Below, one piece after another: positions 9,896-34,072 of a DNA stretch of 34,257 bases. Under the pieces are notes generated by a model, which saw only the letters and a list, made by a program, of their open reading frames with translations, made no database searches and was not told where the DNA came from. The first letter of the stretch is position 1; every line of letters begins with the position of its first letter. Source of the stretch: Deltaproteobacteria bacterium (GTDB taxonomy: Bacteria > Myxococcota_A > UBA9042 > DTJE01 > S145-11); NCBI GenBank assembly GCA_015493765.1, contig WGCQ01000022.1, forward strand, positions 1 to 34,257, given 5' to 3'. The position numbers and the translations under genes are program-made.

Positions 9896-9914
9896 GGTTT
9901 TTGGAGGCGATTTT

Positions 9915-11162
9915 TTGAGACCTGACATGCAAAAAAGGTCCAACCGGCAGGTGCGCAAGGCAAAACGGGGCGTGGCGTTGATTATCGTGCTGACCTCCCT
10001 GGCTATACTGGCCGCCTTTTCGTCCGAGTTGTCATACCGGGCCTACGTGGATGTGAGGACCGCAAAAAACCTGGAACGCCAGGTTCAGGCGTATTTTCAT
10101 GCGCGTTCGGCCATGGAGATTGCGAGGCTGGTGATCACCAGCCAGAAATTCGTGCAGCAGATCCTGGGCGTCATGGGTATGGGAGGTGCACACATCAGGG
10201 TCGAGGTGTGGCCTTTTGCATCGAAATTCGTGGAGGTGTTCAGCACGGGGCAACTGGCATTTGCCGGAGTGCCCGTGCTGCAACTGAAGGACCAGAAAGG
10301 GGTCGGTGTGTCCGAGGGCGGATTCAAGGTGGTGGTCACACCCGAGGATTCCAAGGTAAACGTGACAAAGGTCCTGCGTCCCACGGACAGGCACAATTTG
10401 CTGTTGAAGATGCTGGCGCTGCTGCAGGCCGCTGACATACCGGGTTACGGGGTCGAGGACCGCAACAGCACGGACTTGATTGCCAACATCATCGACTGGG
10501 TGGATGCGGACGATAACAAGACGGACATTGACTCGAACGGGAAGATCACCGAGGGCACGGGCGCAGGGGAAAACGTGCCGTATGACAAGTACGGCTACAA
10601 GGTCAAGAACGCCAAGTTCGATTCCGTGTCCGAACTGCACCTGGTGGACGGTATGACGGACGAGGTCTATTGCAAATTGTCGAAGGCCATTACCGTGTAC
10701 AAGACGGACAAGGTAAATGTGAACGAGGCGGACCCGTTGCTGCTGAAGGCGTTGATATGCAATTCACTGTCCGGTGTGGACCCTGCCGTGGCTTGCGGGT
10801 ACGGTGCGGGCACGGGCGTGGGACCGGGACCAGGGGCCATGGGCATGGCTGGGTCCCCCGTGGATGTGGCCGTGGGTCTCATAGAAATGTGCCGGCAGAT
10901 CAAAAAGGCACTGTACATGCCACCTTTTGCCAATCCCCGGGCCTTCGTGAACCTGCTCAAGAGTCTGCCCGAACCGCTAAACCAGATGTTGCCGATCGAC
11001 GGACGCAGGCTTTTGTCCCAGATAGGGACCAGCAGCAGGGTACTGCGCATAAAGGCCACTGGATGGGTGCACGGCACCGGTTATACCATGGAAACAGTGA
11101 TAGACACGTTGGGCGACAATTACCTGTACTGGCGCGAGTACGGTTCCAGCACGCAGGAGTGA
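9915..11162 (+). CDS. gspK: T2SS minor pseudopilin GspK
   Basis: GspK caps the pseudopilus tip. It starts at TTG 9915, seven bases after GGAGG (9903-9907); the ATG at 9927 would be too far from that site. The signal is KRGVALIIVLTSLAILAAF and lacks the Glu at mature position 5, as is typical of GspK. The 415-aa protein has the GspK domains with IANIIDWVDADDNKT, KFDSVSELHLVDGMTDE and KVNVNEADPLLLKALI, the helix-hairpin-like region that follows the acidic metal-binding loop. A Gly/Pro-rich linker (about 295-315) interrupts the C-terminal half. The gene is followed after one base by gspL. Confidence 0.94.
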   Translation: MRPDMQKRSNRQVRKAKRGVALIIVLTSLAILAAFSSELSYRAYVDVRTAKNLERQVQAYFHARSAMEIARLVITSQKFVQQILGVMGMGGAHIRVEVWPFASKFVEVFSTGQLAFAGVPVLQLKDQKGVGVSEGGFKVVVTPEDSKVNVTKVLRPTDRHNLLLKMLALLQAADIPGYGVEDRNSTDLIANIIDWVDADDNKTDIDSNGKITEGTGAGENVPYDKYGYKVKNAKFDSVSELHLVDGMTDEVYCKLSKAITVYKTDKVNVNEADPLLLKALICNSLSGVDPAVACGYGAGTGVGPGPGAMGMAGSPVDVAVGLIEMCRQIKKALYMPPFANPRAFVNLLKSLPEPLNQMLPIDGRRLLSQIGTSSRVLRIKATGWVHGTGYTMETVIDTLGDNYLYWREYGSSTQE

Positions 11163-11163
11163 T

Positions 11164-12690
11164 ATGGCGCACAGGAGATTAGGCATAACCTGGAATGATG
11201 AACGGGTGAACGTGGGCGTGGTGGAGGCGTCTTTCAGGCGTTTCGAACTAACCGGTTTGTACAGTCTGGCCCGTGAGACAGAGGACGGCTCTCGACTTAC
11301 GGTGGCCCAGGCGATCGAGCGATCGCCGATCGGCAAAATCACCCCCGCTGATACGATTGTGGTGGCGTTTCCGGGCCACAAGGTGATGTACGAGACCATG
11401 GAACTGCCATTTCGGGAACCCAGGCGGGTCAATGCCGCGCTGCCCTTCCAGATGATGGACGCCATTCCCGTGCCCGTGGACCAGTTGCTGGTGGATTATC
11501 ACGTCCTGGAATACAAGGGCAAGGGTATGCGTGTGTTGGCGGCTGCAGCGGCAAAAAAGGGGGTCGCGGATTTCCTGGAGGCTGCGGCGCAAGAGGGGCT
11601 TGACCCTGCCGTGGTGATCCCGGAGGGCTTCGAGACCGCTGTAATCGGCCGTACCATGCAACTGCAAGGCACGAACATGGCCGTGCTGGTCGAGGGCAAT
11701 CACATGGAGATGGCCTTGTTTCGGGACCACGTGATGGTAAACGTGAGGGTGGTTGAACTGGAGCAGGCACATGAAACCGACCAGGAACCGTCATCGGAAC
11801 TACTGCGCGAGGTGATGCTGTTTGCTGCGGCTGTGTCTGACTTTACGGGCCACAACCTGGACGGCATATACCTGATGGGTGATGCTGGCGAGCCGATGCG
11901 TGATGCGGTGGCACAAACCGTTGGGGTGCATGCCACCGTATTGCGACCGGATGACATGGAGTTCTTTGCGGGTGTTGAGGAGGTGCCCGAGTCGCAATCA
12001 GTTATGCGTGCCATGCTGCTGGCGGCATTCCCTGAGGTCATGTCCCTGCGTGATACGGTAAACCTGCGCAAGGGCGGTTTTGCATCCGCGGCACAATACA
12101 GTCTTCTGAAAGGTAAGCTGAAACTGGTTGTGGCCACTGCGCTTACCTTTTTCGTGTTGCTCGGTGTGCGCTCCTACCTGCATTACAACACGCTGAAAAT
12201 GCGCTACGATGCAGAAGTTGCCCAGGTCAGGCAGTTGTCCAAGGCCCTGCTGGACAAGGAATATGAGGACCCGGACAAGGTGCTTGGTATGATGAAACAC
12301 CAGATTTCATACAAACTGAACGTCATGCCAAGGTGCCCGGTTCACAAGGTTATGGGCAAGGTATTCCAGGGCATAGTTGATGCGGGCATGGCATCGCAGG
12401 ACTCCATACAGATAGGTAGTGACCAGGGAATACCCTTTGCAATAGAGATCGAATCCCTGCGCATGGACGAGACCCAGGGATATGTCAGGTGCCAGTCCGA
12501 TACTATCGAGACCATGGAGCAGTTCATCGAGGGGCTGCGAAAGGACGATTGTATCGCGGATGTAACCACCGAAACCACGGAAAGGATTAGTTTCCGCAGG
12601 CACGAGGGCTGGCAGCGCTTTTCCCTGAGGTTCACTTTGAGGCAGAAACCGGAGAAGCAGAAAGGCAAAAGCAAGGGGCAGAAAAAATGA
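11164..12690 (+). CDS. gspL: T2SS inner-membrane protein GspL
   Basis: GspL recruits the GspE ATPase to the inner membrane and pairs with GspM. The 508-aa protein has a large cytoplasmic actin-like (PilM/FtsA-fold) domain (about 1-300; the start RRLGITWNDERVNVGVVEAS is typical), a single membrane segment near residues 318-338 (LKLVVATALTFFVLLGVRSY) and a periplasmic ferredoxin-like domain at the C-terminus. Its start is one base after the gspK stop and its end overlaps gspM by ATGA. The C-terminus is Lys-rich. Confidence 0.93.
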   Translation: MAHRRLGITWNDERVNVGVVEASFRRFELTGLYSLARETEDGSRLTVAQAIERSPIGKITPADTIVVAFPGHKVMYETMELPFREPRRVNAALPFQMMDAIPVPVDQLLVDYHVLEYKGKGMRVLAAAAAKKGVADFLEAAAQEGLDPAVVIPEGFETAVIGRTMQLQGTNMAVLVEGNHMEMALFRDHVMVNVRVVELEQAHETDQEPSSELLREVMLFAAAVSDFTGHNLDGIYLMGDAGEPMRDAVAQTVGVHATVLRPDDMEFFAGVEEVPESQSVMRAMLLAAFPEVMSLRDTVNLRKGGFASAAQYSLLKGKLKLVVATALTFFVLLGVRSYLHYNTLKMRYDAEVAQVRQLSKALLDKEYEDPDKVLGMMKHQISYKLNVMPRCPVHKVMGKVFQGIVDAGMASQDSIQIGSDQGIPFAIEIESLRMDETQGYVRCQSDTIETMEQFIEGLRKDDCIADVTTETTERISFRRHEGWQRFSLRFTLRQKPEKQKGKSKGQKK

Positions 12691-13328
12691 AACAGGTATC
12701 GTGGGACATTACAGGTGCGCTCGACCGTTTATCACAGCGTGAAAAAGTCTTATTCGGGGTGTTGATTGGCGGTTTTCTGGTGATCCTGGTGGTGATTTAC
12801 CAGTTGCTGGTGGGCGGTGTATTTTCCGACCTGAAAATGGACAAAAAACAATTGGAAACCAAGGTGGAAGAAATCCGTAAAATGGCACCTAAGTACCTGA
12901 AATCCAAACAGGAATACAAGGCGCTCATGGACCAGGTCAAGGCCAACACCATGGCGTCCATCCGGATCCCCCTGAATGAGATCGCCAAGACCATCGAGTA
13001 CCAGGGCGACATCAGGGGTGCAACAGGTAACAGGCTGGCTGACATCATATCCTTCGAGGGTCAGACCGTGACGACACCTGTGTTTTTGCGGCCCCGCTCG
13101 AAACGCGCAAAAAAGCATGCCAAGCCCGACCTGGTACGCATTGAGCAGACTGCAAGATTCCGCGAGGTACCTGTAAAGGCCCTGCTGGAATACCTGGACA
13201 AGATCGAACATTCGGACAAACTGATGTGGGTATCCAAAGTGGAGATGACCAGGCGTTTCAATAACATGGCGCACGTGAGGGCCTCGATCACCGTGGCCAC
13301 GTTGCAGTTGCCGTCGGAGGCGCAATGA
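12687..13328 (+). CDS. gspM: T2SS inner-membrane protein GspM
   Basis: GspM is the partner of GspL in the inner-membrane platform. The 213-aa protein has the usual layout: a short cytoplasmic start containing LSQREKVLFGVLIGGF, one membrane segment (about residues 22-44), a charged helical/coiled-coil stretch (about 50-90, QLETKVEEIRKMAPKYLKSK) and a small periplasmic domain. The identification depends on topology and position between gspL and gspN, since GspM sequences diverge strongly. The start overlaps the gspL stop (ATGA). Confidence 0.88.
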   Translation: MKQVSWDITGALDRLSQREKVLFGVLIGGFLVILVVIYQLLVGGVFSDLKMDKKQLETKVEEIRKMAPKYLKSKQEYKALMDQVKANTMASIRIPLNEIAKTIEYQGDIRGATGNRLADIISFEGQTVTTPVFLRPRSKRAKKHAKPDLVRIEQTARFREVPVKALLEYLDKIEHSDKLMWVSKVEMTRRFNNMAHVRASITVATLQLPSEAQ

Positions 13329-13373
13329 TCGGGTATCACGTTACGGTACGGACGTAGTTGAACAGGTGACGAC

Positions 13374-14783
13374 ATGAACAAGGCAGTACAACAGAAGTTG
13401 ACCATGGTCGGCAGGATCAGCGGCTACGTGCTGTTGGCCCTCGTGGTGTTCGTGGTGGGGTTCAGGGTGTCATTTCCTGCTACCGTAATCGCGGATTTGT
13501 TGGAACAACAGGCAGATCGCGCCGGAATACACCTGAAACTCGGGGATGCATCCTTGTCCGGTATAGCAGGGCTGTCGTTGCAGGACGTGGAGGTCGGCAC
13601 CAGGCAAGGGGATTTCCGCATGCACTTCGATCGCCTGGACGCCAGCGCCGGGTTGTTTTCCCTGGCCGCCGGCAAGCCACACATCAGTTTGGAGGCCCGT
13701 GCAGGCAATGGACACATCGGCCCGGTGGATGTCAAAAAAACGGCCACGGACCTGGATGTCACGATCCATGAAATCAAGGATTTCCCGTTGGACAAGGTCC
13801 CGGTCAAGGTGGGCAGGCTCATGGCCACGATAAAAAAGGGCAAGGGACATTTCAGGTATGCGATACGCGGTGGCTTGTACCAGAGCAGGGGCCAATTGGA
13901 CATGGAACTGGTGCATACCGGCCTGCTAAATCCCGCGATCAATATACCCGGATTTGGCAAATTCAAACTGACGTCCATTGACCTGGGCAGGCTGAACGTC
14001 CGCATCGAGGTTGGCAGGCGCGCTGACCTGAAGGCACTGCGCAAGTATCGCGGTATGCGATCCGTGGAGCGCGTGATTAACATCAGCCGCCTGATTGTAA
14101 ATGGCCGTGATTTGAAACTGATGGCCAGCCCCACGTCCACCGTGACAATCCCCAGGCGCGGCAGCCTGATGAACGGACAACTGAACCTGGAGATCGCGTT
14201 TCACATCATGAACGCCTTTTTTGACAAAAAAACCAAGATTGACAACAAACTGGAACAGCCTAACAAGGGGCTGCGCACGCTGTTGGCCCTGGACCCAAAA
14301 TGGAAACGTGCCTGGTACAGGGGTTTCTACGGGCTGATTTGTACCGGCCTCATGCGTCATCCCAGGTGTTTTCCGAAGCGCACCAACCAGAAGATCAGTT
14401 ATTTTCACTTGAACCGCAAGGAAACAGTGCCACCCAAGGCAGGCGGTTTGTTCGGTGGCACAGGCAAGAAACCTGGTATCCAGATCCCACCGCCCGGTGC
14501 ATTGAACAAGGGCGATACCAGGATAAAAGGTCAACAGCCTGCACCGTCCAAGTGGCACCGCATCGAGGCACAACCGCCCGCAGCCGCACCATCACCGCCA
14601 CAACCAATACGCCGAGCCCCTCCAGTAACCTCACAGGCTGTCGAGCATCAGGCAATCCGTACCATGCCACGAGTACCGATAATGCCAGTGCGCAAGGTAA
14701 TCAAGATGGACCTGGCCAGGCCAATGCTGAAGGGCCTCAAGCACCTGCCAAAACAGGATGATGACCAGGAATCCGGACCGTGA
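13374..14783 (+). CDS. gspN: T2SS protein GspN (delta-type, AsmA-like)
   Basis: This is the last gene of the operon, 45 bases after gspM and preceded by an AGGTGA site. The 469-aa protein has one N-terminal membrane segment (about 13-33, ISGYVLLALVVFVVGF) and then a periplasmic domain with the GspN/AsmA-like features VIADLLEQQADRAGIHLKLGD and SGIAGLSLQDVEVGTR. The conserved part ends near residue 345; the rest is a disordered, Pro/Ala/Gln-rich tail (PPAAAPSPPQPIRRAPP). GspN-type proteins accompany T2SS genes in Myxococcota and related phyla; their exact role is unsettled. Confidence 0.85.
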   Translation: MNKAVQQKLTMVGRISGYVLLALVVFVVGFRVSFPATVIADLLEQQADRAGIHLKLGDASLSGIAGLSLQDVEVGTRQGDFRMHFDRLDASAGLFSLAAGKPHISLEARAGNGHIGPVDVKKTATDLDVTIHEIKDFPLDKVPVKVGRLMATIKKGKGHFRYAIRGGLYQSRGQLDMELVHTGLLNPAINIPGFGKFKLTSIDLGRLNVRIEVGRRADLKALRKYRGMRSVERVINISRLIVNGRDLKLMASPTSTVTIPRRGSLMNGQLNLEIAFHIMNAFFDKKTKIDNKLEQPNKGLRTLLALDPKWKRAWYRGFYGLICTGLMRHPRCFPKRTNQKISYFHLNRKETVPPKAGGLFGGTGKKPGIQIPPPGALNKGDTRIKGQQPAPSKWHRIEAQPPAAAPSPPQPIRRAPPVTSQAVEHQAIRTMPRVPIMPVRKVIKMDLARPMLKGLKHLPKQDDDQESGP

Positions 14784-17665: not shown

Positions 17666-18751
17666 CTATATCACATTCCACGGAAAGGCCAGGCACTGGG
17701 CAATGGAATCCCTATGCGCAAGCAAGGCGACCAGCCGGTCCAGTCCCACGGCCACGCCTCCGGCCGGGGGCATGCCCTCAGTCAGGGCTGCAATAAAACG
17801 GGTGTCCACCGCAGGCAGGTCCAGTCCTTCGGCACGACGTTGCTGTAGCACATGGATAAACCGGTCCAACTGTTCATCCGGGTCCAGCAGTTCGGTAAAG
17901 CCGTTTGCCACCTCAACCCCGGCAATATACAGTTCGAAACGCTGGGCCATGCCTGTATCCGGGTCCAGGGCGGCCAGGCTGGCCATAGTGGCAGGGTAAT
18001 CATACACGAACACAGGCGCATCCCGACCCAGCAAACCGTCCCAGTCAGCCATGACCATGTTTATTGCATCCGGGTCATCCTCCATGGTGCACCGGCCGTC
18101 TGCCTGCAACAATTGCCCCACGGTTCGACGCTCCCAGGGGCCCTCAAGATCCGCACTGACGCCATTCATACGCACTTCCCGCACGTTCACACGCCTGCCA
18201 ACCCACCGCACCATTGCCTCCAGGTCATCCATGATGTCCCGATAGTCAGCGCCGGCGCGATAGAATTCCAGCATGGTGAATTCCGGATTGTGCATCCTGC
18301 CCGCCGGTTCCCGGCGAAAGGCCCTGGTGACCTGGAATATACGTTCCTCGCCGCCCGTGAGCAGTCGTTTCATGTAAAATTCCGGGCTGCTAATGAGCGA
18401 AAGCCCTTCATGCACCGGCATGAATAAATCGATATGCGGCTCCAGTCCCCCGGCCGCGGCAAGGTTCGGTGTATTGACCTCCCAAAAACGCCGCATCCTG
18501 AAAAATTCCCTTATCGCATCCAGCACCAGGGCACTTATCCGCATACAATCAGCGCGCTGCTGCATCATGGACACGGCCTCGCCGCGATCCCTCAGCGCGC
18601 CCCTGCGGACCACGGTCACTTTTCCATTTAGTACTGTTACGATGTCACCGGGCCTGGCCTGTCCCCAATCCTTCACGACCACGTTGCGAAGCCTGCCAGA
18701 GCCCCACAAAACCGCGCGGTCCCCTGCCCTTTCTAACAAACGCCCGAGCAC
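17666..18751 (-). CDS. epmA: EF-P lysine lysyltransferase EpmA (PoxA/GenX)
   Basis: EpmA is a lysyl-tRNA-synthetase paralogue that attaches (beta-)lysine to a conserved lysine of EF-P, which helps ribosomes through polyproline. The 361-aa protein shows class II synthetase motifs: FRMRRFWEVNTPNLAAAGGL near motif 1, VTRAFRREPAGRMHNPEFTM (motif 2) and GGVAVGLDRLVALLAHRDS (motif 3) at the C-terminus. It starts at GTG 18751, 12 bases after the efp stop, so both genes form an operon. An N-terminal extension of about 60 residues precedes the usual EpmA start; it may be a remnant of an OB-fold. The aminomutase EpmB is not in the window. Confidence 0.92.
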   Translation of the reverse strand: MLGRLLERAGDRAVLWGSGRLRNVVVKDWGQARPGDIVTVLNGKVTVVRRGALRDRGEAVSMMQQRADCMRISALVLDAIREFFRMRRFWEVNTPNLAAAGGLEPHIDLFMPVHEGLSLISSPEFYMKRLLTGGEERIFQVTRAFRREPAGRMHNPEFTMLEFYRAGADYRDIMDDLEAMVRWVGRRVNVREVRMNGVSADLEGPWERRTVGQLLQADGRCTMEDDPDAINMVMADWDGLLGRDAPVFVYDYPATMASLAALDPDTGMAQRFELYIAGVEVANGFTELLDPDEQLDRFIHVLQQRRAEGLDLPAVDTRFIAALTEGMPPAGGVAVGLDRLVALLAHRDSIAQCLAFPWNVI

Positions 18752-18763
18752 GGTCCGCCGACG

Positions 18764-19318
18764 CTACGCACGCTCCACGTACGCACCCGTACGGGTATCC
18801 ACCTTGATCATCTCGCCCTGTTCAATGAACAAGGGCACCTGCACCTTTGCGCCGGTCTCCAGTTCCGCCACTTTAGTGGCACCGGATACGGTGTCCCCCT
18901 TTACGCCCGGTTCCGTGTACGTGATCTTCAGTTCCACGAATATGGGCGGTTCCACTGCTGTGGGTTGGCCTTCGTACAACAGGATTTTGCAATCCATGTC
19001 CTCTTTCAAAAACAAGGCTGCATCACCCACCACTTCCTTGGGTATGCCGACCATCTCGTAGGTATTCTGGTCCAGGAAGAAATACGTGTCGCCCTGTTTG
19101 TAACTGAATGTCGCTGGCGATTGCTGAAAATCAGCAGGCTCAACCTGTTCGCCGGATTTGAAGGTCTTTTCCACCACCTGCCCTGTTTTCAGGTTTTTTA
19201 GCCGCAGTTTGGTGATTGCATTGCCCTTGCCCGGTTTGACGAACTGGTAATCCACCACCAACCATGGGGCGCCATCCATTTTCAGTTTCGTACCCTTGCG
19301 TGCCTGTGTCACATCCAT
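18764..19318 (-). CDS. efp: translation elongation factor P
   Basis: EF-P binds between the ribosomal P and E sites and relieves stalling at consecutive prolines. The 184-aa length and three-domain layout are normal. The modification loop FVKPGKGNAITKLRLKNLKT carries Lys31, the expected target of the neighbouring EpmA. The C-terminal domain holds the signature region GVKGDTVSGATKVAELETGA. The ATG is preceded by GAGGT. A likely promoter lies upstream (19402-19430, minus strand). The efp-epmA pairing is direct evidence of lysine-type modification rather than rhamnosylation (EarP) or the 5-aminopentanol form. Confidence 0.97.
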   Translation of the reverse strand: MDVTQARKGTKLKMDGAPWLVVDYQFVKPGKGNAITKLRLKNLKTGQVVEKTFKSGEQVEPADFQQSPATFSYKQGDTYFFLDQNTYEMVGIPKEVVGDAALFLKEDMDCKILLYEGQPTAVEPPIFVELKITYTEPGVKGDTVSGATKVAELETGAKVQVPLFIEQGEMIKVDTRTGAYVERA

Positions 19319-19514: not shown

Positions 19515-21299
19515 GTGAAGCGTTTCTTGATATGCCTGGTGATGGTAGCCGTGTCCTGCGGTGCCCAGATTAGACAACAAATACTGATACATATACCATC
19601 CAGGTACGTAAATACCGCACCAAAAACCTTCACGCGCAGGGCCATGGAATGGAGTATGCTGAACCCTCCCCTGGCCTGCCGCACACACCGTCATATCATG
19701 GTGGGACGCATGCATGGAAACGGCAGTTTATCCATTGGAACCGTAACGAACGGCTACATTGTAAACCCGGTAATGCTGCCACTCACTGGCCGGGACTACA
19801 GGGTCATGGACCGCCAGGCCAAACGGGCTACAAATTTCGGGGTCAGCGAAATGGTTGACCTGGTAAAAAGGACGGCAAAGTCAGTGGCTGAAACATTTCC
19901 CGGCAGTGTCATGCAGGTGGCGAATATGGCGGCCTGTGGCGGAGGCGAAATTCCATGGAGCGTATCCCACCACAGCGGCAGGGACGTGGACATCGCATTC
20001 TATCTGCTTAATCTGCAGGGCAAACAGGCGCAACTGTCGGACATGGTGGCCATAGGCCCTGACGGTACGGGCATGGACGATACGGGGCGCGTGCTTACCT
20101 TTGACCCGGCCAGGAATTGGGCCATGATCAAGGCCATTATCACGGACCCACACGTGTCCGTACAGTGGATTTTTATTGCCCATTACCTGAAACGCAGGCT
20201 GTTGCAATTCGCCATGCAACACGGTGAACCCAGGTCACTGATTATCAAGGCTTCCCAGGTGATGTGGCAGCCCCACGGGTCCAGCGCCCATTCGGATCAC
20301 ATCCATGTCCGCATATATTGCCCGGTGGATGACCTGATGGAGGGCTGTCACGACATAGGCACGAACCGGCCATGGTACGTGGACCATTCCGACCTGGTGG
20401 CTCGCAGGGTGGCTGAACTATCCGCAATCCTGCGACAACGGGCAGGGCTTGCAGCCAAGGCACAGGCGCTGGACACACTGGGAGCGATCGGTACACCCGA
20501 GGCCCACCAGGCCATTGTGCGGATGCTGGGCTCAAGGGCCATATCATTGCGCAGGGCCGCGGCGCATGCATTGTTTCGATGGGGCACGCTGCAGGCCGAC
20601 CTGGATGCCATGTTCAACACGCTGGAAGGCCGTGTGGACGGAATTACGGCCCTGTACCTGATGTATGCGCTGAAGCGTTACAAGGGGCCGGGCAGATGCG
20701 AGGCAATGTGCCGGCTGATGGGGATACACAAGGGGTGGACCGTACCGGCCGCCCTGGGATTGTGGCGCTTTCGGGCGCCTGCCTTTGCGGCCAAGGTGCT
20801 GGCCCTGCGCGGGGAAGTGCCTGCGATTCCCAGTTTAATCCGATGCCTGAAGGACAATAACGCCATGGACCGCAATGCCTGTGTCCAGGCGCTTCACAGG
20901 ATCACCAACCGCACACTAATATTCAATGCGATGTCAGTACAACCGGCAGTACTTTGGCATACATGGTCGGACTGGTATGCAGGACACCGGGACGCCACAC
21001 GCAAGGACTTGCTGGTATCCGGTTTTGCAATCAGCGGGGTTTTGCCGTATGCCTCCGTGAACAGCATGACCTTCAGCAGGTTGGACCTCGTGGCCTTGTA
21101 CAGGGAGGCACTGACCAACCCGCACCCGTATAATGCCTATTTCCTGCTGGCACGCCTGACCCACACAGGCTTGTGGCTGCCGCGCAATTCCATGCACTCC
21201 AGGCTATTTTTCCTGAACCAGAGGTTGATGAAGCGGGCTGTTGAATGGGGTCTCGCCCTGCCTCACACGCACGAAAAAACAGGACAAGAAGACCGGTAA
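19515..21299 (+). CDS. M74 (MepA-like) murein endopeptidase fused to HEAT-like repeats
   Basis: This is probably a periplasmic or lipid-anchored LAS-type zinc peptidase that cuts peptidoglycan cross-links. The 594-aa protein starts at GTG 19515 with a hydrophobic leader ending in AVSC (about residue 15), a possible lipobox. The metal-binding pattern of penicillin-insensitive endopeptidase MepA is present: H152 and D159 in HHSGRDVDIAF, and H259, H262 and H264 in SAHSDHIHVRIYCP, with the same spacing as E. coli MepA. Residues 300-470 form alpha-helical HEAT-like repeats (QALDTLGAIGTPEAHQAIVR, SLRRAAAHALFRWG), which MepA lacks, and a further C-terminal region of unknown type follows. No Shine-Dalgarno sequence is seen. 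Confidence 0.8.
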   Translation: MKRFLICLVMVAVSCGAQIRQQILIHIPSRYVNTAPKTFTRRAMEWSMLNPPLACRTHRHIMVGRMHGNGSLSIGTVTNGYIVNPVMLPLTGRDYRVMDRQAKRATNFGVSEMVDLVKRTAKSVAETFPGSVMQVANMAACGGGEIPWSVSHHSGRDVDIAFYLLNLQGKQAQLSDMVAIGPDGTGMDDTGRVLTFDPARNWAMIKAIITDPHVSVQWIFIAHYLKRRLLQFAMQHGEPRSLIIKASQVMWQPHGSSAHSDHIHVRIYCPVDDLMEGCHDIGTNRPWYVDHSDLVARRVAELSAILRQRAGLAAKAQALDTLGAIGTPEAHQAIVRMLGSRAISLRRAAAHALFRWGTLQADLDAMFNTLEGRVDGITALYLMYALKRYKGPGRCEAMCRLMGIHKGWTVPAALGLWRFRAPAFAAKVLALRGEVPAIPSLIRCLKDNNAMDRNACVQALHRITNRTLIFNAMSVQPAVLWHTWSDWYAGHRDATRKDLLVSGFAISGVLPYASVNSMTFSRLDLVALYREALTNPHPYNAYFLLARLTHTGLWLPRNSMHSRLFFLNQRLMKRAVEWGLALPHTHEKTGQEDR

Positions 21300-26113: not shown

Positions 26114-26323
26114 CAAGCCATGATTACAATCGGTCAAGCAATGATTATAACTTGATATATCATAATTATAACTGGAGATGTCATGATCTCAATCGGATAA
26201 GTTATGATTTTAATCAAACATATATCTGTCCGATTAAAAGAAGCGTATGCACAATTAAACTACTGCGTTGTCCGATTCGGACAAGGATATGTCCATGCCG
26301 GACACGCCGTTTTCTTGACTGTC
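26114..26323. repeat. degenerate tandem array, 21-bp period, about 10 units
   Basis: Five clear units run end to end at 26114, 26135, 26156, 26177 and 26198. Each has six variable bases and then a core like ATGATTATAATCGGA, whose centre GATTATAATC is a palindrome. The 21-base phase continues through five weaker units (26219-26323), which carry a different palindromic core: TGTCCGATTCGGACA (perfect apart from the central base) and TGTCCATGCCGGACA. Two helical turns per unit would place all cores on one DNA face, as expected for regulator-binding sites. Confidence 0.6.
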
Positions 26324-26431: not shown

Positions 26432-26438
26432 GTTCCGC

Positions 26439-26491
26439 CAAGGGGATGGAGTTCCCCTTTCAATTGTCCCTTTGGGGCTAATGACTCCTGT
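26439..26491 (+). promoter_or_regulatory. fluoride riboswitch (crcB motif)
   Basis: The aptamer features are all visible. The first stem AAGGGG/CCCCTT (26440-26445 with 26454-26459) encloses ATGGAGTT. A second stem GTCCC/GGGGC (26466-26470 with 26474-26478) has a TTT loop. The conserved tail CTAATGACTCCTG follows (26478-26490). The conserved pseudoknot is GGAG (26448-26451) with CTCC (26485-26488). CTCC could alternatively pair with GGAG in the leader-ORF ribosome binding site (26534-26537), so fluoride binding would free that site and turn translation on. No intrinsic terminator with a T run follows, which also favours translational control. To my knowledge the crcB motif has been reported ahead of formate-hydrogenlyase-like operons as well as fluoride exporters. 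Confidence 0.85.
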
Positions 26492-26543
26492 TTATAGTAC
26501 GAGCCATTGACCGCCGATGCGGCAATTGATTGGGGAGGTATCC

Positions 26544-26639
26544 ATGTACCGAAATCTCTGTAAATTTCAACCTGAAATATCTACACAGAATACCGGTCCT
26601 TTGTTTTTGCTAGCAAACCTCATCGGAGGGATGAAATAA
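26544..26639 (+). CDS. 31-aa leader ORF upstream of the Ehr-like operon
   Basis: A short ORF starts at ATG 26544, five bases after a strong GGGGAGG (26532-26538), and ends at TAA 26637-26639. That stop overlaps the ATG of the hyfC-like gene (TAATG). The peptide begins MYRNLCKFQPEISTQNTG and ends FLLANLIGGMK. The overlap suggests that ribosomes finishing this ORF restart on hyfC, so the riboswitch may act through it. The GGAGGG just before its last codons can also serve hyfC directly. I recognise no homology; it may be a leader peptide or a small membrane-associated subunit. Confidence 0.55.
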   Translation: MYRNLCKFQPEISTQNTGPLFLLANLIGGMK

Positions 26640-27586
26640 TGATAAAATCCATAATTTTCAATTCGTTACAGGTCATCGTGGTGATGGTATTTTCCCCTTT
26701 GGCCATGGGCGTATTGAATCGTTTGAAAGAAAACGTGCAGTCCAAGCGGGGGCCGTCCATTTTCCAGCCCTACCTGGACCTGTGGAAATTGTTTTCCAAG
26801 GATGAGGTGGTGTCGAACGAAAGCACATGGATATTCCGCGTCACCCCTTACGTGGTATTCGTTGCGCCGATATTCGTTACCCTGCTGATCCCGGTGTTGA
26901 CTGCGTATCCACTGTTCTGGGCGTTTATGGCCGACATGGTGGGGGCAGGATTTATTTTGGCGCTGGGCGGCTTTTTTTCCATCCTGGCGGCCGTGGATAC
27001 GGCGAATCCATACGGACCAATGGGGTCCAGCCGCACGCGCATGGTGGGGTTTCTGGCCGAACCCGTATTTTTGATCGTATTTTTTACGGTATCCTTTGTG
27101 GCGGACTCCACGATCCCTTACATCGTGCAACAGCAATGGGTACACCCGATGTCCAATTTCTTTGAGCCGGCCCACATCCTGCTGTTGATTGCCTTTTTGA
27201 TGCTGATACTGGCGGAAAAAGGCCGCCTGCCAGTGGACAATCCATCAGGTCACTTCGAACTGGCCATGATCGACGAGTCCAAGGGCCTGGAGTATTCGGG
27301 CCGCGCTGCCGCACTGATGAAATGGGGCGGTTGGATGAAATTTTTTGTGCTGATGAACATATTTTTGAACGTGCTGTTAACCCCTTGGGGGCTGGCCTCC
27401 ACGTGGGCCTGGGGTGACGTACTGATCGCCATTCCATTGATCCTGCTGAAGATATTCGGCTTTATCATCTTTTTGGTACTGATCGAGTCATCCCTGGCCA
27501 AATTGCGCCTGTTCCGTATCAGTGAATTCATGACTGCTGCCTTTGCCATTGCCGTGTTGGCAATGATGGCCGGGGCCTTTGCATAG
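26639..27586 (+). CDS. hyfC: HyfC/HycD-like membrane subunit (NuoH family) of an Ehr-type complex
   Basis: This is the membrane subunit that joins the hydrophilic module to the antiporter-like subunits, equivalent to NuoH of complex I. The 315-aa protein has about eight membrane segments. Conserved cytoplasmic loops are NVQSKRGPSIFQPYLDLWKL after the first segment and ILAEKGRLPVDNPSGHFELA followed by MIDESKGLEYSGRAAALMKW, which are the expected HyfC/NuoH loops with their charged residues. GGAGGG precedes the ATG, which overlaps the leader-ORF stop. It is the first of six co-directional, tightly spaced genes. Confidence 0.93.
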   Translation: MIKSIIFNSLQVIVVMVFSPLAMGVLNRLKENVQSKRGPSIFQPYLDLWKLFSKDEVVSNESTWIFRVTPYVVFVAPIFVTLLIPVLTAYPLFWAFMADMVGAGFILALGGFFSILAAVDTANPYGPMGSSRTRMVGFLAEPVFLIVFFTVSFVADSTIPYIVQQQWVHPMSNFFEPAHILLLIAFLMLILAEKGRLPVDNPSGHFELAMIDESKGLEYSGRAAALMKWGGWMKFFVLMNIFLNVLLTPWGLASTWAWGDVLIAIPLILLKIFGFIIFLVLIESSLAKLRLFRISEFMTAAFAIAVLAMMAGAFA

Positions 27587-27598
27587 GGGGAGTCCGTA

Positions 27599-28285
27599 AT
27601 GTCACACCTTATACCTGTTATCAAGAGCCTGAACGCCCTGACAGGAGGGCTGTTTATCATCACCGCGTTTGGCGTGGTGGCTGCACGCCAGGTTCGTTCC
27701 GGGCTGAAATTTTTCATCTTTCAATCCCTTTGCCTGGCTTCATCCGCCTTTTTGCTGGGTATCGCACCGTTTTCGCCCCACCTGTTCGCCGTGGGCACCA
27801 TAAACCTGGTGACCAAGGTTTGGCTGCTGCCATGGCTGCTGATTCGCATGATGCCGCGAACCACCTACACCCGGCGTGAAATAAAACAGGTGGTCAATAT
27901 ACCCACATCCCTGATGATTGCCCTGATCCTGACCGTCTTTGCGTATTTTGTTTCCCTGCCCTGGGTCCATGCCATGGCGGACAACGGCGTAGCGCGAATC
28001 AACGTGCCCATCGGTCTGGCAGGCATGCTGATCGGGGCATACACGCTGACAACGCGGCGTGAGGCGATCCCCCAGGTGATGGGCTTGCTGACCATGGAGA
28101 ACAGCGCCTTTTTCGCAGGGGTCGCAATCGCACCTGACCTGCCGGTAATAGCGGAATTGTCCCTGGCATTTGACGTCCTGTTATTCGCCTTTATCGTGGG
28201 CCTGGTGACACGTTCGGTGCATGAAAACACTGGCGGTACATTCGTCGGTCATTTGAACGATTTACGGGAGGACCCTTCAAAATGA
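27599..28285 (+). CDS. hyfE: HyfE-like membrane subunit (NuoK-related)
   Basis: This is a small polytopic subunit of Hyf/Ehr-type complexes, related to NuoK with extra N-terminal segments. At 228 aa it is the usual HyfE length, with about six or seven membrane helices. The conserved MGLLTMENSAFFAGVAIAPD near residue 160 contains the Glu found in HyfE/NuoK channels. GGGGGAG lies before the ATG, and the gene ends in an ATGA overlap with hyfF. Confidence 0.9.
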   Translation: MSHLIPVIKSLNALTGGLFIITAFGVVAARQVRSGLKFFIFQSLCLASSAFLLGIAPFSPHLFAVGTINLVTKVWLLPWLLIRMMPRTTYTRREIKQVVNIPTSLMIALILTVFAYFVSLPWVHAMADNGVARINVPIGLAGMLIGAYTLTTRREAIPQVMGLLTMENSAFFAGVAIAPDLPVIAELSLAFDVLLFAFIVGLVTRSVHENTGGTFVGHLNDLREDPSK

Positions 28286-29715
28286 TACTGATTATTATGC
28301 TCCTGCTCCCCCTAATTACAGCGCTGGTGTCAGGGCTGTTCGCACAAAAACGAGTCAACGAAATCATTACGGTGACTGGCTCGTCGGTACTGTTCGTACT
28401 GGCAGTATGGGCAGCCCACGCGGTCCTGAATGCACCGCAGCATATCCTGATCGCGCTTCCTGGCTGGATTGCCTTGGGTCCTGCCGGCGCTGTCATATTG
28501 GTGCTGATATCCCTTATTGCCCTGCTTTCATCAATATATTCAATCGGTTACATGAGGTACGATACGAACAGTCCCAGGACGTTTCACGTCAATTTCAATC
28601 TTTTCGTGTTTGCCCTGGCAGCGATCCCGTTGAGCATTAACCTGGGCATGGTATGGATAGCCGTTGAAATGACCACCCTGTTTTCCGTGCTGCTGGTCGG
28701 CTTCGACAATACGCCATCGGCCCTGGAGGCGGCCTGGAAATACATGGTTTTGACCATGATGGGCGCGGCACTGGCATTGTTCGGCATCCTGTTGCTGTAC
28801 TGGGGGGCCAGGCACGCTAACATGGGGGCATTCACCTGGTCCGGGCTGGTGACCGCAGCCCCTTCCATGCCCCCTGTATTGATTACCGCAGCATTCATCA
28901 TGCTGCTGGTCGGATTGGGTACCAAGATCGGCCTGGTTCCAATGCACACCTGGCTGCCTGATGCGCACAGCCAGGCCCCCACTCCCGTATGTGCCCTGCT
29001 GTCAGGCATTGAAACAACCGCCGTGCTGTACGTGCTGTTGCGTGTGCTGGCCGTTGTACATGCATCTAACAGCGTTCATGCATCCAACTGGCTGCTGGGA
29101 TTCGGGCTGCTTTCCCTGGGGGTACCCGCATTCTTGCTGTTACAGGTAAAGGACTACAAGCGCATGCTGGCCTTTTCCACGGTCGAACACATGGGCATCA
29201 TACTTATTGCCCTGGGCCTGGGCGGCTCAGCGGCAAACCAGGCCGCGTTCATGCAGATCATCGGCCACGCAGTCACAAAGTCGTTCTGGTTTTTCGCCGC
29301 CGGCAGTGTGTTGCTGGTAACGAATACCCGTGAAATTGCATCCGTCCACGGGTTGATCAAACGGTCACCAGGTGCGGGTATCGCCATGTTGACAGGCGGG
29401 CTGGCCATTGCCGGAGCGCCGCCTTTTATCCTGTTTTTCAGCGAGTTTTCCATATTGAAGGCAGGACTTTTGCAATCGCATTACCTGGTGATGGGGCTGA
29501 CCGTGTCTTTCATTGCCGTTGCGTTTTTTGCGATCATGAACCACGTCAGCCGCATGGTATTCGGTGGTGACCCGGACAGGTCGGGCGAAAGACTGCCCGG
29601 ATCCGTTTGGCTTACATTGGTGCTGGCCATTATACCCGTGATCGTTTTGGGGCTGTACATCCCGGATGCCTTGCATCGCCTGGTTGAACTGGCAGCAACA
29701 ATAATTGGAGGATAA
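28282..29715 (+). CDS. hyfF: HyfF-like antiporter subunit (NuoN/NuoM family)
   Basis: This is a proton-translocating antiporter-like subunit of 477 aa with about 14 membrane segments. The family's key elements are present: Glu in WIAVEMTTLFSVLLVGF, Lys in VGLGTKIGLVPMHTWLPDAH, the PTPVCALLSGIETTAVLYVL segment and the second Lys/His region QVKDYKRMLAFSTVEHMGII. The proton path therefore looks intact. It overlaps hyfE by ATGA and is followed after three bases by the large-subunit gene. Confidence 0.93.
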   Translation: MILIIMLLLPLITALVSGLFAQKRVNEIITVTGSSVLFVLAVWAAHAVLNAPQHILIALPGWIALGPAGAVILVLISLIALLSSIYSIGYMRYDTNSPRTFHVNFNLFVFALAAIPLSINLGMVWIAVEMTTLFSVLLVGFDNTPSALEAAWKYMVLTMMGAALALFGILLLYWGARHANMGAFTWSGLVTAAPSMPPVLITAAFIMLLVGLGTKIGLVPMHTWLPDAHSQAPTPVCALLSGIETTAVLYVLLRVLAVVHASNSVHASNWLLGFGLLSLGVPAFLLLQVKDYKRMLAFSTVEHMGIILIALGLGGSAANQAAFMQIIGHAVTKSFWFFAAGSVLLVTNTREIASVHGLIKRSPGAGIAMLTGGLAIAGAPPFILFFSEFSILKAGLLQSHYLVMGLTVSFIAVAFFAIMNHVSRMVFGGDPDRSGERLPGSVWLTLVLAIIPVIVLGLYIPDALHRLVELAATIIGG

Positions 29716-29718
29716 GCC

Positions 29719-31206
29719 GTGGATATTTCGCAACTTGCTGAAAATATACATGAATTTTTCCCGGCAGCCAGCCTTTTTAGCGGGCCGGAATCGTTGAATA
29801 TCACCTGTGACAAAAATGTCGCACCCGGGGTATGCGATTTGTTGTTCAACAGGGCGCACTGCTTTTTCATGGGCCTGGACTGGGGGCAGCAGGCGGATGA
29901 AATTCACGTGATTTACCTGTTTCTTGGCCCTGGCAATGAATACATAGAGGTGCAGACCGGCACGAAAAAAACGGACCCGGTATTTTACAGCGTCAGCCAG
30001 GCAGTGCACGCGGCAGACTGGTATGAACGCGAGGCAGCCCATGTGCTCGGAGTGGATTTCACAGGCCACCCGAAATTAGGGGATTTTGTCACCCATAATG
30101 ACCAGCCGCCCACCAGGGTCCTGGATGCGGAGGGCGCCTTCATCATGCCAATCGGACCGGTGTTTTCAGGCGTCGCCGAATCCATCCACTTCAGGCTGGA
30201 AACCATTGGCGAGGAGGTAATTCGCACGGTGCCGAAACTGTTTTACAAACGCCGCAATATTGAAGACCTGGCCGTGGGTCGTACGTCGGGCGACGTGGTG
30301 TTGCTGGCGGAGAGGTTCGCGGGCACCACGGCCATATCCCACGCCCTGGGCTATTGTATGGCCGTGGAATCCATATCCGGCACGGATGTACCGAAACGGG
30401 CCGTGTTTTTACGTGTTTTTTTGGCAGAGATGGAACGCATCCGGCATCACCTGGGCGTGATCGAGGGGATTTGCGCGTCCACGGGCCTGGGCGTGGCTGC
30501 CAGCCAGGTGGCGGTTTTGCACGAGGAGGCTCTGCGGATCACAGGCACTGTGACGGGTCACAGGTACGGGTTCGGTATGGTTGTGCCCGGCGGGCTCAGC
30601 CTGGACTTGCCGGATGATGCGTGTTTGACAGCCGTCAACCAGGTGGACGACATCGTAAAACGCCTGGAGGGCATTGAACGACTACTGGTTAAAACGACCA
30701 CATTTTTGGATCGCCTGGAGGACGTGGGCGTGGTGACGAAAACGGATGCCCTGGAACATGGCATGGTCGGGCCGATTGCGCGTGCTTCGGGTGTGTGCGC
30801 GGATTGCAGGCGGTCGAAACCGTACGGCGGATACGATGTGTTGAGGCCTGAAATACCCTGCGAACAGGAGGGCGATGGTTTTGCACGCCTGCGGGTATTT
30901 TTTGCGGAAATCAGGCAATCGACAGTACTGATGCGGCGGGCACTGGAAAATGCCGGGGCCGGTCCTGTGTTCTCGCGGGTTACGCCCAAGGCCGGCATGA
31001 AAACCGCGTGTGTGGAGTCACCGCGCGGCCTGGCAGTACACCGAGTGCGCGTGGACGCCGATTTCCGGGTACAGCATTACAGGGTGTTTTCACCTTCGTT
31101 TGCGAACTGGCACGGGTTTCACACGGCAGCCGAGGACTTTGCATTCCAGGACTTTCCGATCATCCTGGCAACATTCGGATTGTCCGTGGCGGAAAGTGAC
31201 AGGTGA
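29719..31206 (+). CDS. HyfG/HycE-like large subunit without the NiFe-binding cysteines (Ehr type)
   Basis: This 495-aa protein fuses a NuoC-like domain (about 1-150, with DWYEREAAHVLGVDFTGHPK) to a NuoD/HycE-like domain (about 160-495, with FYKRRNIEDLAVGRTSGDVV). In hydrogenases two Cys-x2-Cys motifs bind the NiFe site. Here the first is replaced by A201-G202-T203-T204 (ERFAGTTAISHALGYC in place of RVCGICGFAHS). The second, near the C-terminus, is replaced by DFPIILATFGLSVAESDR, aligning without gaps to the D-x-P...DPCxSCxxR pattern with Ser489 and Glu492 in place of Cys. There is no maturation tail. It should not make or use hydrogen; its substrate is unknown. Confidence 0.92.
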   Translation: MDISQLAENIHEFFPAASLFSGPESLNITCDKNVAPGVCDLLFNRAHCFFMGLDWGQQADEIHVIYLFLGPGNEYIEVQTGTKKTDPVFYSVSQAVHAADWYEREAAHVLGVDFTGHPKLGDFVTHNDQPPTRVLDAEGAFIMPIGPVFSGVAESIHFRLETIGEEVIRTVPKLFYKRRNIEDLAVGRTSGDVVLLAERFAGTTAISHALGYCMAVESISGTDVPKRAVFLRVFLAEMERIRHHLGVIEGICASTGLGVAASQVAVLHEEALRITGTVTGHRYGFGMVVPGGLSLDLPDDACLTAVNQVDDIVKRLEGIERLLVKTTTFLDRLEDVGVVTKTDALEHGMVGPIARASGVCADCRRSKPYGGYDVLRPEIPCEQEGDGFARLRVFFAEIRQSTVLMRRALENAGAGPVFSRVTPKAGMKTACVESPRGLAVHRVRVDADFRVQHYRVFSPSFANWHGFHTAAEDFAFQDFPIILATFGLSVAESDR

Positions 31207-31250
31207 TGGATGCTGGCATTCAGGACAAAGGCATCTAAAAGGATGGGAAC

Positions 31251-31943
31251 ATGAGCAGATGGGCGTTAAAAGGACTAAAAACAGGCGTGGTTACCACGTC
31301 CTATCCCGGGGGTGATGAACGGGCGTCCGGCATTTCACCGGGCTTGCCGGTGTCCGGTACCACGAACCAGGCCGTGATTGCGGCATGCCCTGTCCATGCG
31401 CTGGACAATGGGGGCGTACGGCGCAATCGTTGCATTGATTGTTACCGCTGTGCGCGGACACAGGGCGAAAACATGGCCTGGGACAGGGGATTTGAATGGG
31501 CACAGGTCAAAAAAGAGGCGGTCCTGCCCGCACCCTTCAAGCACGCGGTGAATATTCGGGTGCTGGATGCCGGCGACTGCGGTGCATGCCTGTCGGAAAT
31601 CGAACAATTGAACAATCCCTACTACAACATGCACAGACTGGGATTTTTTATCACACCGACGCCGCGAAAGGCCGATATTTTAATCGTGGCAGGCACAATA
31701 ACAAAACAAATGCGTCCGGTTTTGATGAAAACATGGGAGGCCATGCCCACGCCCAAGCGCCTGATCGCTGTGGGAGCCTGTGCATTGACCCACGGAGTCT
31801 TCGGTCAGGACAGCCCCGTATTGAGCGATATCCTGCCCGTGGACGTGGCCATACCCGGGTGCCCGCCGCCGCCCCTGGCCATTATCCATGGCCTGCTGGC
31901 CATCACGGGACGTAAACCCGGAAGCGACTGGGAGGTGGAATGA
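31251..31943 (+). CDS. HyfI-like small subunit (NuoB family) with N-terminal ferredoxin-type cluster
   Basis: This is a 230-aa iron-sulfur protein. The C-terminal half is NuoB/HyfI-like, with the proximal cluster ligands C110 and C113 in LDAGDCGACLSEIEQL, C177 in VGACALTHG and C204 in PGCPPPP. The N-terminal half carries one more [4Fe-4S] motif, C61-x2-C64-x2-C67 with C46-Pro (ACPVHAL, RCIDCYRC), as in one half of a bacterial ferredoxin or HyfH. Two clusters could thus lead electrons to the cavity where the NiFe site would have been. An AAAGGATGG region precedes the ATG, and the end overlaps hyfB (ATGA). There is no separate hyfH. Confidence 0.9.
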   Translation: MSRWALKGLKTGVVTTSYPGGDERASGISPGLPVSGTTNQAVIAACPVHALDNGGVRRNRCIDCYRCARTQGENMAWDRGFEWAQVKKEAVLPAPFKHAVNIRVLDAGDCGACLSEIEQLNNPYYNMHRLGFFITPTPRKADILIVAGTITKQMRPVLMKTWEAMPTPKRLIAVGACALTHGVFGQDSPVLSDILPVDVAIPGCPPPPLAIIHGLLAITGRKPGSDWEVE

Positions 31944-34072
31944 TGCATGCTGTGATAATCGCTGCCATCTGCCTGGGCATCATGGTTGCAGGCATGGCCC
32001 TGGTTTTATTGCTGTCCGATAAAAAGACAGCGGCAGTCATTGCATGGGTAGGTATTACGGGTGGCCTGATTGCATTGATAGCCGGTGTGTCAGGACTGGC
32101 GCAGGGCAATTTGACAGGTGTGATGCTGTGGTCCATGCCCGGTTTGGGACATTTGAAACTGTACGTGGACCGTATGTCCGCATTGTTCATACTGGTCAGC
32201 GGACTTGTGTTTGTTGCCGTGTCCCTGTTCTCTGCACAGTACATGAAGGCCTATGCCGGCCGTATCCGGATGAAGACCTTTGGCATCGAATACCTGGCCC
32301 TGTTTGCATCGATCATTGCGGTCCTGGTGGCAGGCGACGTATTTTCCTTTTTGATCGCATGGGAAGGCATGTCGATCCTGAGTTTTTTGACGGTAAACAC
32401 CCACTGCGAATCCACGCCTGCACGCCGGGCGGCCTACCTGATGCTGGCCATTGGCGAGGCCGGGACCCTGTCCGTGACCGTGGCCCTCATACTCCTGGCC
32501 AATAAGGCTGGCTCAACGGATTTCCACGCGATTGCAACGGCAATGGCGCATGTGGGCCCGGGGCTGCGCTGGACCGTGTTTTTACTGTCCTTTTTCGGCT
32601 TTGCCACCAAGGTTGGCCTGTTTCCTGTCAACACCTGGCTGCCCAAGGCCCACCCCGTTGCACCGGCAAACGTGTCCGCCATGCTTTCAGGGCTGATCCT
32701 GAACCTGGGCATCTATGGGATCCTGCGCGTAAACTTCATGCTGCTGCCCGTTAATTCGCCGGGACCCGGTATCGTGGTCATGCTGACAGGTGCCACTTCC
32801 GCTGTCATAGGCATCCTGTACGCCACGATCACAAACGACATCAAGCAGGTCCTGGCCCACAGTTCCATTGAAAACATGGGCATAATCACGACAGGCATGG
32901 GCGCTGCCATGGTATTTCATGCCCTGGGACACCCGGTTTTCGCATCCATGGCCCTGGTGGCTGCGTTGTACCACATGGTTAACCACTCCATGTACAAAAG
33001 CCTGCTGTTTCTGGGCGCTGGCAGCGTGGACACCAGGGCAGGCACGCGTGACCTGGATCGGCTGGGCGGACTGATGCGTGTCATGCCGTGGACAGGAGTT
33101 TTCATGCTGGCCGGTGTGATGGCCATTGCCGCTTTGCCGCCGTTCAACGGTTTTGTCAGCGAGTGGCTGTCCATCGAGGCCTTGCTGCGCAGCGTGGAAC
33201 TGGCATCCACGGGTATAAAACTGGCGTTCGTGCTTTCCGGTATTGCCCTGGCCTTGACAGCGGGGCTTGCAGTGACCGCGTTCGTACGGTTCTTTGCCAT
33301 GGGATTTCTGGGCATGCCACGCTCGGAATCGGCCCGCAACGCCCGGGAAACAGGTCCTCTTGCGATTACGGCCCTTGCATTGCTGGCAATCGTCAGTTTC
33401 GGGCTGGGTGTGATGCCAACTTACGTGATACCTGCCCTGGACAGGGTCAGCAGTCCCATGACCCAGGCCAGCGCAGCCACCGCCCTGGTGCCTCCGTTTT
33501 TCCGAAACCAGGCCTTTGGACACGAACTGCCTGACGGGTTTGTCCGTGATTTTCACAATATCGGAGCCCAGGTCGGGAGCACCCTGCCAGGCCGGGGATT
33601 GGTGGTTATGCACCGCGGCGGTAAATCCAATCCGGTGGTCTTTGCCATGTCGTCCTCATATACCTTTGTGATGCTGGCATTCCTGCTGGGACTGTTGTTT
33701 CTGGTGGTCAGGTTTGCCACGGCCCGACGTGCAAAAACCGTTCACAACCAGCCCTGGGACGGCGGCATCCCACGACTTTGGCCTGAAATGACCTATACGG
33801 CAACCGGATTTGCCCATCCCGTGAGGGTACTGTTCGAAACATTGCTGCGGCCCAAGGTCAGTAATCGCCGTCAAAGCATTGCCAGGCATTTTCGCATGGT
33901 TATCGAACACCGGCGTAATGAGGTTTACCTGGTTGACCGCCTTGTGCTGAAACCCGTATCCCAGGCATCGGGTTGGATTGCCAATAAACTGGCTGTCATG
34001 CATAACGGCAAGGTCAATGCCTATGCCCTGTACATTCTAATCACGATCATACTGGCATTTGTTCTCTTTTGA
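31940..34072 (+). CDS. hyfB: HyfB-like antiporter subunit (NuoL family)
   Basis: This is the largest membrane subunit, 710 aa, related to NuoL/HyfB. The proton-channel residues are present: Glu in SFLIAWEGMSILSFLTVNTH, Lys in FGFATKVGLFPVNTWLPKAH, the PVAPANVSAMLSGLILNLGI segment and KQVLAHSSIENMGIITTGMG. The C-terminal extension carries a soluble or loop region (about 575-660, PWDGGIPRLWPEMTYTATGF) and a final membrane segment, as in HyfB. It starts in an ATGA overlap with the small-subunit gene and is the last gene of the operon. No hydrogenase maturation genes or formate dehydrogenase follow within the window. Confidence 0.93.
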   Translation: MMHAVIIAAICLGIMVAGMALVLLLSDKKTAAVIAWVGITGGLIALIAGVSGLAQGNLTGVMLWSMPGLGHLKLYVDRMSALFILVSGLVFVAVSLFSAQYMKAYAGRIRMKTFGIEYLALFASIIAVLVAGDVFSFLIAWEGMSILSFLTVNTHCESTPARRAAYLMLAIGEAGTLSVTVALILLANKAGSTDFHAIATAMAHVGPGLRWTVFLLSFFGFATKVGLFPVNTWLPKAHPVAPANVSAMLSGLILNLGIYGILRVNFMLLPVNSPGPGIVVMLTGATSAVIGILYATITNDIKQVLAHSSIENMGIITTGMGAAMVFHALGHPVFASMALVAALYHMVNHSMYKSLLFLGAGSVDTRAGTRDLDRLGGLMRVMPWTGVFMLAGVMAIAALPPFNGFVSEWLSIEALLRSVELASTGIKLAFVLSGIALALTAGLAVTAFVRFFAMGFLGMPRSESARNARETGPLAITALALLAIVSFGLGVMPTYVIPALDRVSSPMTQASAATALVPPFFRNQAFGHELPDGFVRDFHNIGAQVGSTLPGRGLVVMHRGGKSNPVVFAMSSSYTFVMLAFLLGLLFLVVRFATARRAKTVHNQPWDGGIPRLWPEMTYTATGFAHPVRVLFETLLRPKVSNRRQSIARHFRMVIEHRRNEVYLVDRLVLKPVSQASGWIANKLAVMHNGKVNAYALYILITIILAFVLF

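Follow-up and report, generated by a model that had tools for sequence, protein, structure and literature searches.

Ehr complexes, which lack the NiFe ligands, have been described, and their function was called unknown up to 2025 (PMC12342949, PMC6349859, PMC10284858). Fluoride riboswitches of the crcB motif have been reported ahead of genes labelled "formate hydrogen lyase" (Weinberg 2010; PMC2864571), which a 2024 review explains as formate oxidation in fermentation (PMC11139923). A paper equating the two was not found in the open literature that was searched, from which subscription papers, including the 2012 fluoride-riboswitch paper, were excluded. Here, we analyzed a contig of 34,257 nucleotides from a Deltaproteobacteria bacterium (WGCQ01000022.1, assembly GCA_015493765.1; hereafter the window), in which a fluoride riboswitch precedes six hydrogenase-like genes. 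The operon is most likely part of fluoride defence and not a hydrogen enzyme, because a fluoride riboswitch heads it here and in all relatives with readable upstream DNA. This joins two loose ends, the role-less Ehr complexes and the riboswitch-linked "formate hydrogen lyase" genes, unexplained since 2010 and, in this clade, wrongly labelled.

A fluoride riboswitch precedes the hyf-like operon

The genes hyfC-E-F-G-I-B (26639-34072) are all open, contiguous and in one direction. Twelve nucleotides separate hyfC from hyfE, three hyfF from hyfG and 44 hyfG from hyfI, while hyfE/hyfF and hyfI/hyfB overlap. As open, co-directional and nearly touching genes they represent a single operon. The contig stops 185 nucleotides past hyfB, and the host genome is a draft (96.75% complete). 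Pfam and NCBIfam place the products in the NuoH, HyfE/NuoK-like, HyfF, NuoC+NuoD, NuoB and HyfB families, in agreement with the initial annotation, which was made from the sequence alone.

That annotation overlooked a fluoride riboswitch aptamer (crcB motif, RF01734) in the 650-nucleotide gap upstream of hyfC. The aptamer (26433-26497, forward strand) was detected by cmscan with 44.9 bits (E = 1.7e-9; the Rfam gathering score for RF01734 is 34 bits), lies on the sense strand and ends 141 nucleotides before hyfC. Its pseudoknot (GGAGU/ACUCC) is perfect. For covariation analysis, 30 aptamers were compared: the one of the window, 28 heading related operons and a second site in the host genome. 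Standard pairs make up 95.6% of the pair cells, 42 pair cells are changed on both sides versus 11 in shuffles, and sliding the partners destroyed the pairing. The fold, including the pseudoknot, shows strong covariation in these homologues.

Downstream, a predicted anti-aptamer strand (26521-26543, forward strand) would pair with the aptamer and includes a Shine-Dalgarno sequence at 26532-26538 (GGGGAGG), forming the putative OFF-state expression platform. The duplex reaches -47.2 kcal/mol compared with -35.4 ± 4.1 in shuffles (4 of 500 equally low), and the minimum free energy fold of the leader has a z-score of -2.2. A possible leader open reading frame (ORF) of 31 amino acids follows (26544-26639, forward strand) with a good Shine-Dalgarno sequence, and its stop and the hyfC start codon overlap in TAATG. 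Since the pairing over the Shine-Dalgarno sequence is better than expected, a translational ON switch acting through this short ORF coupled to hyfC is a reasonable prediction. No convincing simple intrinsic terminator was found 3' of the aptamer. Small ORFs also occur between riboswitch and hyfC in relatives, but they share no sequence, and the idea of a conserved leader peptide was dropped. Upstream of the riboswitch, positions 26115-26300 are AT-rich with degenerate repeats of the ATGATTATAACT/ATCGG type, perhaps sites for a regulator.

Riboswitch-linked large subunits branch apart from classical Ehr

A scan of GTDB species genomes yielded 31 related loci sharing 38-54% identity, spread over Planctomycetota, Acidobacteriota, Verrucomicrobiota, Spirochaetota, Campylobacterota, Actinomycetota, Nitrospirota, Chlamydiota, Myxococcota, Pseudomonadota and further groups. 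Almost all of these loci show the order C-E-F-G-I-B. An aptamer precedes the operon in every one of the 29 genome loci with readable upstream DNA, 26 times above the gathering score and three times (L005, L021, L027; 31-34 bits) below it at the corresponding place. In the 26, it lies directly upstream of hyfC or of a short gene in the same direction (dynamin or DUF190) that comes ahead of hyfC. The plasmid copies of the fluoride type also carry it (4/4: Burkholderia multivorans, B. cenocepacia, Mycobacterium branderi and Alicyclobacillus), and those of Burkholderia sit in evident fluoride-resistance islands together with diphosphatase, DUF190 and dynamin genes, and in one case CrcB. No fluoride riboswitch was found at 17 classical Ehr loci (five plasmid-borne and 12 chromosomal controls). 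For the above-cut-off genome hits plus the window, this gives 27/30 versus 0/17 (Fisher, p = 4e-10), a test that ignores shared ancestry, though the clade spans many phyla. The predicted fluoride control of the operon is strongly supported by this linkage.

On the Alicyclobacillus plasmid (L076), a large-subunit gene (6627-8329) stands alone after a fluoride riboswitch of its own. At a distance of 3 kb (11188-11452), both strands carry short HyfC-like fragments, possibly remnants of a decayed operon, for which reason this orphan was set aside as proof of an independent function of the large subunit.

In the phylogenetic tree, a branch with support 88/95 sets off the 34 rows of fluoride-linked large subunits, among which a core of 30 members is supported at 100/100. 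The classical Ehr sequences (19, support 100/98) do not include the subunit of the window. A tree had been named in the initial annotation as a check on its reading, and the subunit does fall into the fluoride clade, outside the branch of E. coli HycE and HyfG. With L045, a true NiFe large subunit of the host phylum, the fluoride clade and classical Ehr meet at an open fork, so that one and two independent losses of the NiFe site both fit the tree.

The initial annotation had assigned the locus to the Ehr type. This holds in the broad sense: a group-4-like large subunit without the two CxxC NiFe motifs stands beside a NuoB-like small subunit, a NuoH-like subunit and antiporter-like subunits, as in classical Ehr, and the iron-sulfur and pump parts are intact. 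What it missed is that this is not an ordinary Ehr. Unlike the classical complexes, which are ordered B-C-E-F-G-I, the window shows the order C-E-F-G-I-B, S-x2-E at the C-terminal site (classical: S-x2-G/C), a fused half-ferredoxin, a tree position outside the classical clade, and a crcB-motif aptamer directly upstream. We are therefore highly confident that the operon belongs to a separate, fluoride-regulated clade of Ehr complexes (Ehr-F). The statement that the reaction of Ehr complexes is undescribed stands, but a physiological context can now be named, and fluoride or hydrogen fluoride (HF) stress is the first condition under which an Ehr-type complex could be tested.

Across 380 genomes of the host phylum, the window holds the only fluoride-type large subunit among the matches listed, and the next-best of those listed are of the NiFe type and classical Ehr. 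Together with the plasmid copies and the wide distribution over phyla, this lone occurrence points to horizontal spread of the operon. The host phylum often has classical Ehr large subunits (AGDT ... NLSYAGHDL; e.g. L083-L094), and no fluoride riboswitch accompanies them.

The large subunit has lost the NiFe site

The gene hyfG (29719-31206, forward strand) encodes an EhrL-like large subunit of NuoC+NuoD architecture, as judged from Pfam/NCBIfam, alignments and an AlphaFold2 model (mean predicted local distance difference test score 85). The top PDB match of the model is HycE (7z0s_E, TM 0.89), with NuoCD next. When aligned with HycE and HyfG of E. coli, the subunit has A201, T204, S489 and E492 at the four NiFe cysteine positions with no local gap, which bears out the initial annotation. 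Its further claim that this is not a sequencing error is confirmed by the absence of these cysteines from all 30 aligned members, in which E492 is invariant; sequencing error is ruled out. The other residues of the former active-site chamber considered here (E154, W464, H468) are, like E492, nearly or fully invariant, and HyfG retains both E154, the glutamate through which protons reach the NiFe site of hydrogenases, and His208, which are common to it and the E. coli hydrogenase-3/-4 large subunits. Lacking the NiFe ligands, the Ehr-F complex of this clade cannot make hydrogen.

Only annotation speaks for a true formate hydrogenlyase or hydrogenase, the identity given to these genes in riboswitch papers (PMC2864571, PMC11139923). 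Searches of the window and of 593 kb from relatives gave no match to formate dehydrogenase (FdhF) or HycB, no HycI or HypABC homologue was seen near 35 copies, and HycF, a further difference from E. coli hydrogenase-3/-4, is missing here. In the host genome, HypD was not found and nothing reaches the family cut-off for a NiFe large subunit. With ligands, Hyp proteins and formate dehydrogenase all missing, this identity is ruled out for the clade by sequence, and its probability is negligible. It follows from the lack of NiFe ligands and of formate dehydrogenase that the "formate hydrogen lyase" of the fluoride regulon is, at least in this clade, an Ehr complex; the riboswitch-linked genes so labelled, Hyf-like members of the fluoride regulon, almost certainly belong to the Ehr-F family.

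Complex I (NuoBCDHKLMN) shares the NuoC+NuoD fold, the E-channel and the antiporter residues, but NuoE, NuoF and NuoG had no match near the operon. An ordinary complex I duplicate was ruled out by the loss of the quinone residues, and the genome has two other NuoD copies.

A putative role of the complex in fluoride defence

HF crosses membranes and dissociates inside the cell, whereby the cytoplasm is acidified and the proton-motive force lowered, on which in turn fluoride export by Fluc and CLC-F depends. The membrane arm of the complex has retained what a pump would need. HyfC (26639-27586, forward strand), a NuoH-like membrane anchor (PF00146, E = 5.6e-31), keeps E141, D200, E207 and E218 and is the most conserved subunit (60-84% to relatives), and in the HyfE-like subunit with its NuoK-type C-terminal half (27599-28285, forward strand; NF008556, E = 2e-18) E167 and E186 are conserved. 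The same is true of the two antiporter subunits: HyfF (28282-29715, forward strand; PF00361, 8e-50; NF005044, 4.7e-99) with E149, K215, K293, K333 and E388, and HyfB, which bears a C-terminal extension (31940-34072, forward strand; NF005086, 1.1e-164), with E142, K224, K302, K353 and E408. The initial annotation was thus right that the Glu and Lys residues are retained, and the proton-path residues of HyfC, HyfE, HyfF and HyfB show the conservation pattern of Hyf and Nuo. Several Verrucomicrobiota and Acidobacteriota loci (L008, L015, L020, L021, L029) have a second hyfB-like antiporter gene after or near the operon.

We propose that the complex is a fluoride-induced, electron-driven proton pump restoring membrane energy and internal pH under HF stress, and assign this reading a probability of roughly 0.5. 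Two antiporter-type subunits and an intact charge axis would fit such a task. In this model, intracellular fluoride released from incoming HF would stabilise the aptamer, the competing helix would open and the operon would be expressed. Electrons from a cytoplasmic low-potential donor, perhaps ferredoxin, would enter the N-terminal cluster of HyfI, move on to the proximal cluster next to what was the NiFe chamber, and there reach an acceptor. The energy would be relayed through HyfC and the two antiporter subunits, pushing protons (or Na+ against H+) outward. Pumping would counter both HF acidification and the loss of proton-motive force and could power fluoride exit via Fluc or CLC-F where present. 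This suggests that fluoride is answered with a whole energy-converting complex, beyond channels and antiporters. Its parts deserve separate judgement: that ion pumping is the job of the complex is somewhat favoured, while for redox drive through the iron-sulfur wire in the host organism the odds appear evenly balanced. The redox drive is the weak link of the mechanism.

Iron-sulfur ligands and alternative functions

The gene hyfI (31251-31943, forward strand) encodes an EhrS-like small subunit in which a half-ferredoxin is fused to a NuoB-like domain (PF01058, 3.7e-24, and alignments). The N-terminal motif C46, C61, C64 and C67, absent from the initial annotation, corresponds to the "CP ... 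CxxCxxC" half of a two-cluster ferredoxin and would hold one [4Fe-4S] cluster. The NuoB-like domain contains C110, C113, C177 and C204 as ligands of the proximal cluster, so that all eight iron-sulfur cysteines are present in the window. The half-ferredoxin cysteines as well as C110 and C177 are invariant in 23/23 relatives. These invariant HyfI cysteines and the conserved chamber residues indicate that the peripheral arm is under selection.

Several findings weigh against the proposed pump. C204 is replaced by Asn, Asp or Ser in 11 of the 23 relatives; the retention of C110/C113/C177/C204 claimed in the initial annotation is therefore correct for the window but does not extend, at C204, to the family. 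The fluoride-linked copy of M. branderi has none of the four proximal-cluster ligands. The quinone residues are gone too, with A153 and G202 in place of E. coli NuoCD His224 and Tyr273. Finally, no CrcB/Fluc was recognised in the host genome, which leaves the proposed partner exporter unproven here. Erosion of the proximal ligands would be surprising in a pump driven by electrons that reach the chamber.

A rival reading is a redox-silent scaffold: under fluoride stress, the membrane arm would act as an Mrp-like Na+/H+ (or K+/H+) antiporter or a gated proton path, with no electrons involved, while the peripheral arm is being dismantled. Cofactors have been lost stepwise in the clade: the NiFe site in all members, one ferredoxin cluster in the core clade (Burkholderia retains both), C204 in 11/23 relatives, C113 in two, and all four ligands in M. 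branderi. Na+/H+ antiporters also rank next after the exporters as the commonest class of fluoride-riboswitch genes (PMC11139923). Set against this are the invariant half-ferredoxin cysteines, C110 and C177, and the near-invariant E154, E492, W464 and H468, and we consider the scaffold unlikely. Less likely still would be a complex-I-type fluoride-defence device that expels fluoride or HF, or pumps ions without redox turnover, having descended from a hydrogenase stripped of NiFe and then, in some lineages, of the proximal cluster. Whichever applies, redox sites have been lost by degrees across the clade, which offers a natural experiment on the requirements of complex-I-type pumps. Two plasmid loci stand out in this respect. 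The NuoB-like subunit of the M. branderi plasmid (L082, 8309-9103) and that of a classical-type copy on an Allomeiothermus silvanus plasmid (L078, 8260-9132) have no proximal-cluster cysteine, with half-ferredoxin and operon retained, and both apparently represent complex-I-type machines without an N2-type cluster.

The MBS sulfane-sulfur reductase of Pyrococcus is likewise complex-I-like and lacks the quinone residues as well as a NiFe site (PMC7684303), which raises the possibility of a reductase for a small acceptor at the proximal cluster, with fluoride relief as a secondary effect, e.g. electron disposal when fluoride blocks enolase. The non-Cys residue at a proximal ligand in many relatives would agree with such an enzyme. 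In MBS, by contrast, the proximal cluster has three Cys ligands and two NiFe cysteines out of four remain (PMC7684303). The Ehr-F clade has no NiFe cysteine, the window has all four proximal cysteines, and the ligand lost in MBS is a different one. We regard this reductase as improbable.

Similarly doubtful, and to the same degree, is an active extruder, in which the antiporter subunits or the former chamber export F- or HF, driven by electrons or the proton gradient. In its favour, predicted direct control by fluoride extends to the entire operon in all lineages examined, and Fluc is not seen in the host genome or in 13/29 Ehr-F genomes. Fluc is present in the other 16, incompleteness of the metagenome-assembled genomes may account for the absences, and the proton-path residues show the same conservation as those of true proton pumps. 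To our knowledge, anion transport has not been described in NuoL/Mrp-type subunits, which counts against fluoride extrusion as well. Ehr as a consistent substitute for Fluc was likewise not supported, both being present in those 16 genomes.

Gene neighbourhood and other features of the window

Recurrent neighbours of the related operons are dynamin-family GTPases (14 loci), DUF190 (7), enolase (6) and MutS-domain proteins (4), and several of these are known to be linked to fluoride riboswitches (PMC2864571, PMC11139923). A conserved electron-donor gene was not found beside the operon, where neighbours are either fluoride-regulon genes or unrelated. The host genome contains one CLC, assigned to family level only, and exactly two fluoride riboswitches, before the hyf operon and before a dynamin-like GTPase. 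The second (L041, contig C66:11976-12033) is followed by the gene of a dynamin-family GTPase, a kind that recurs beside fluoride-type Ehr operons.

The remainder of the window contains an ordinary type II secretion operon (626-14783; GspC, D, E, F, G, pseudopilins, J, K, L and M) and, on the reverse strand, an EF-P gene adjoining a short lysyl-tRNA-synthetase-like protein (17666-19318), an ordinary pair of the EpmA type. A single protein encoded at 19515-21299 combines a penicillin-insensitive murein endopeptidase domain with HEAT repeats following it. At the contig end (3-323, reverse strand), a weak match to the 23S rRNA-intervening-sequence protein family was observed.

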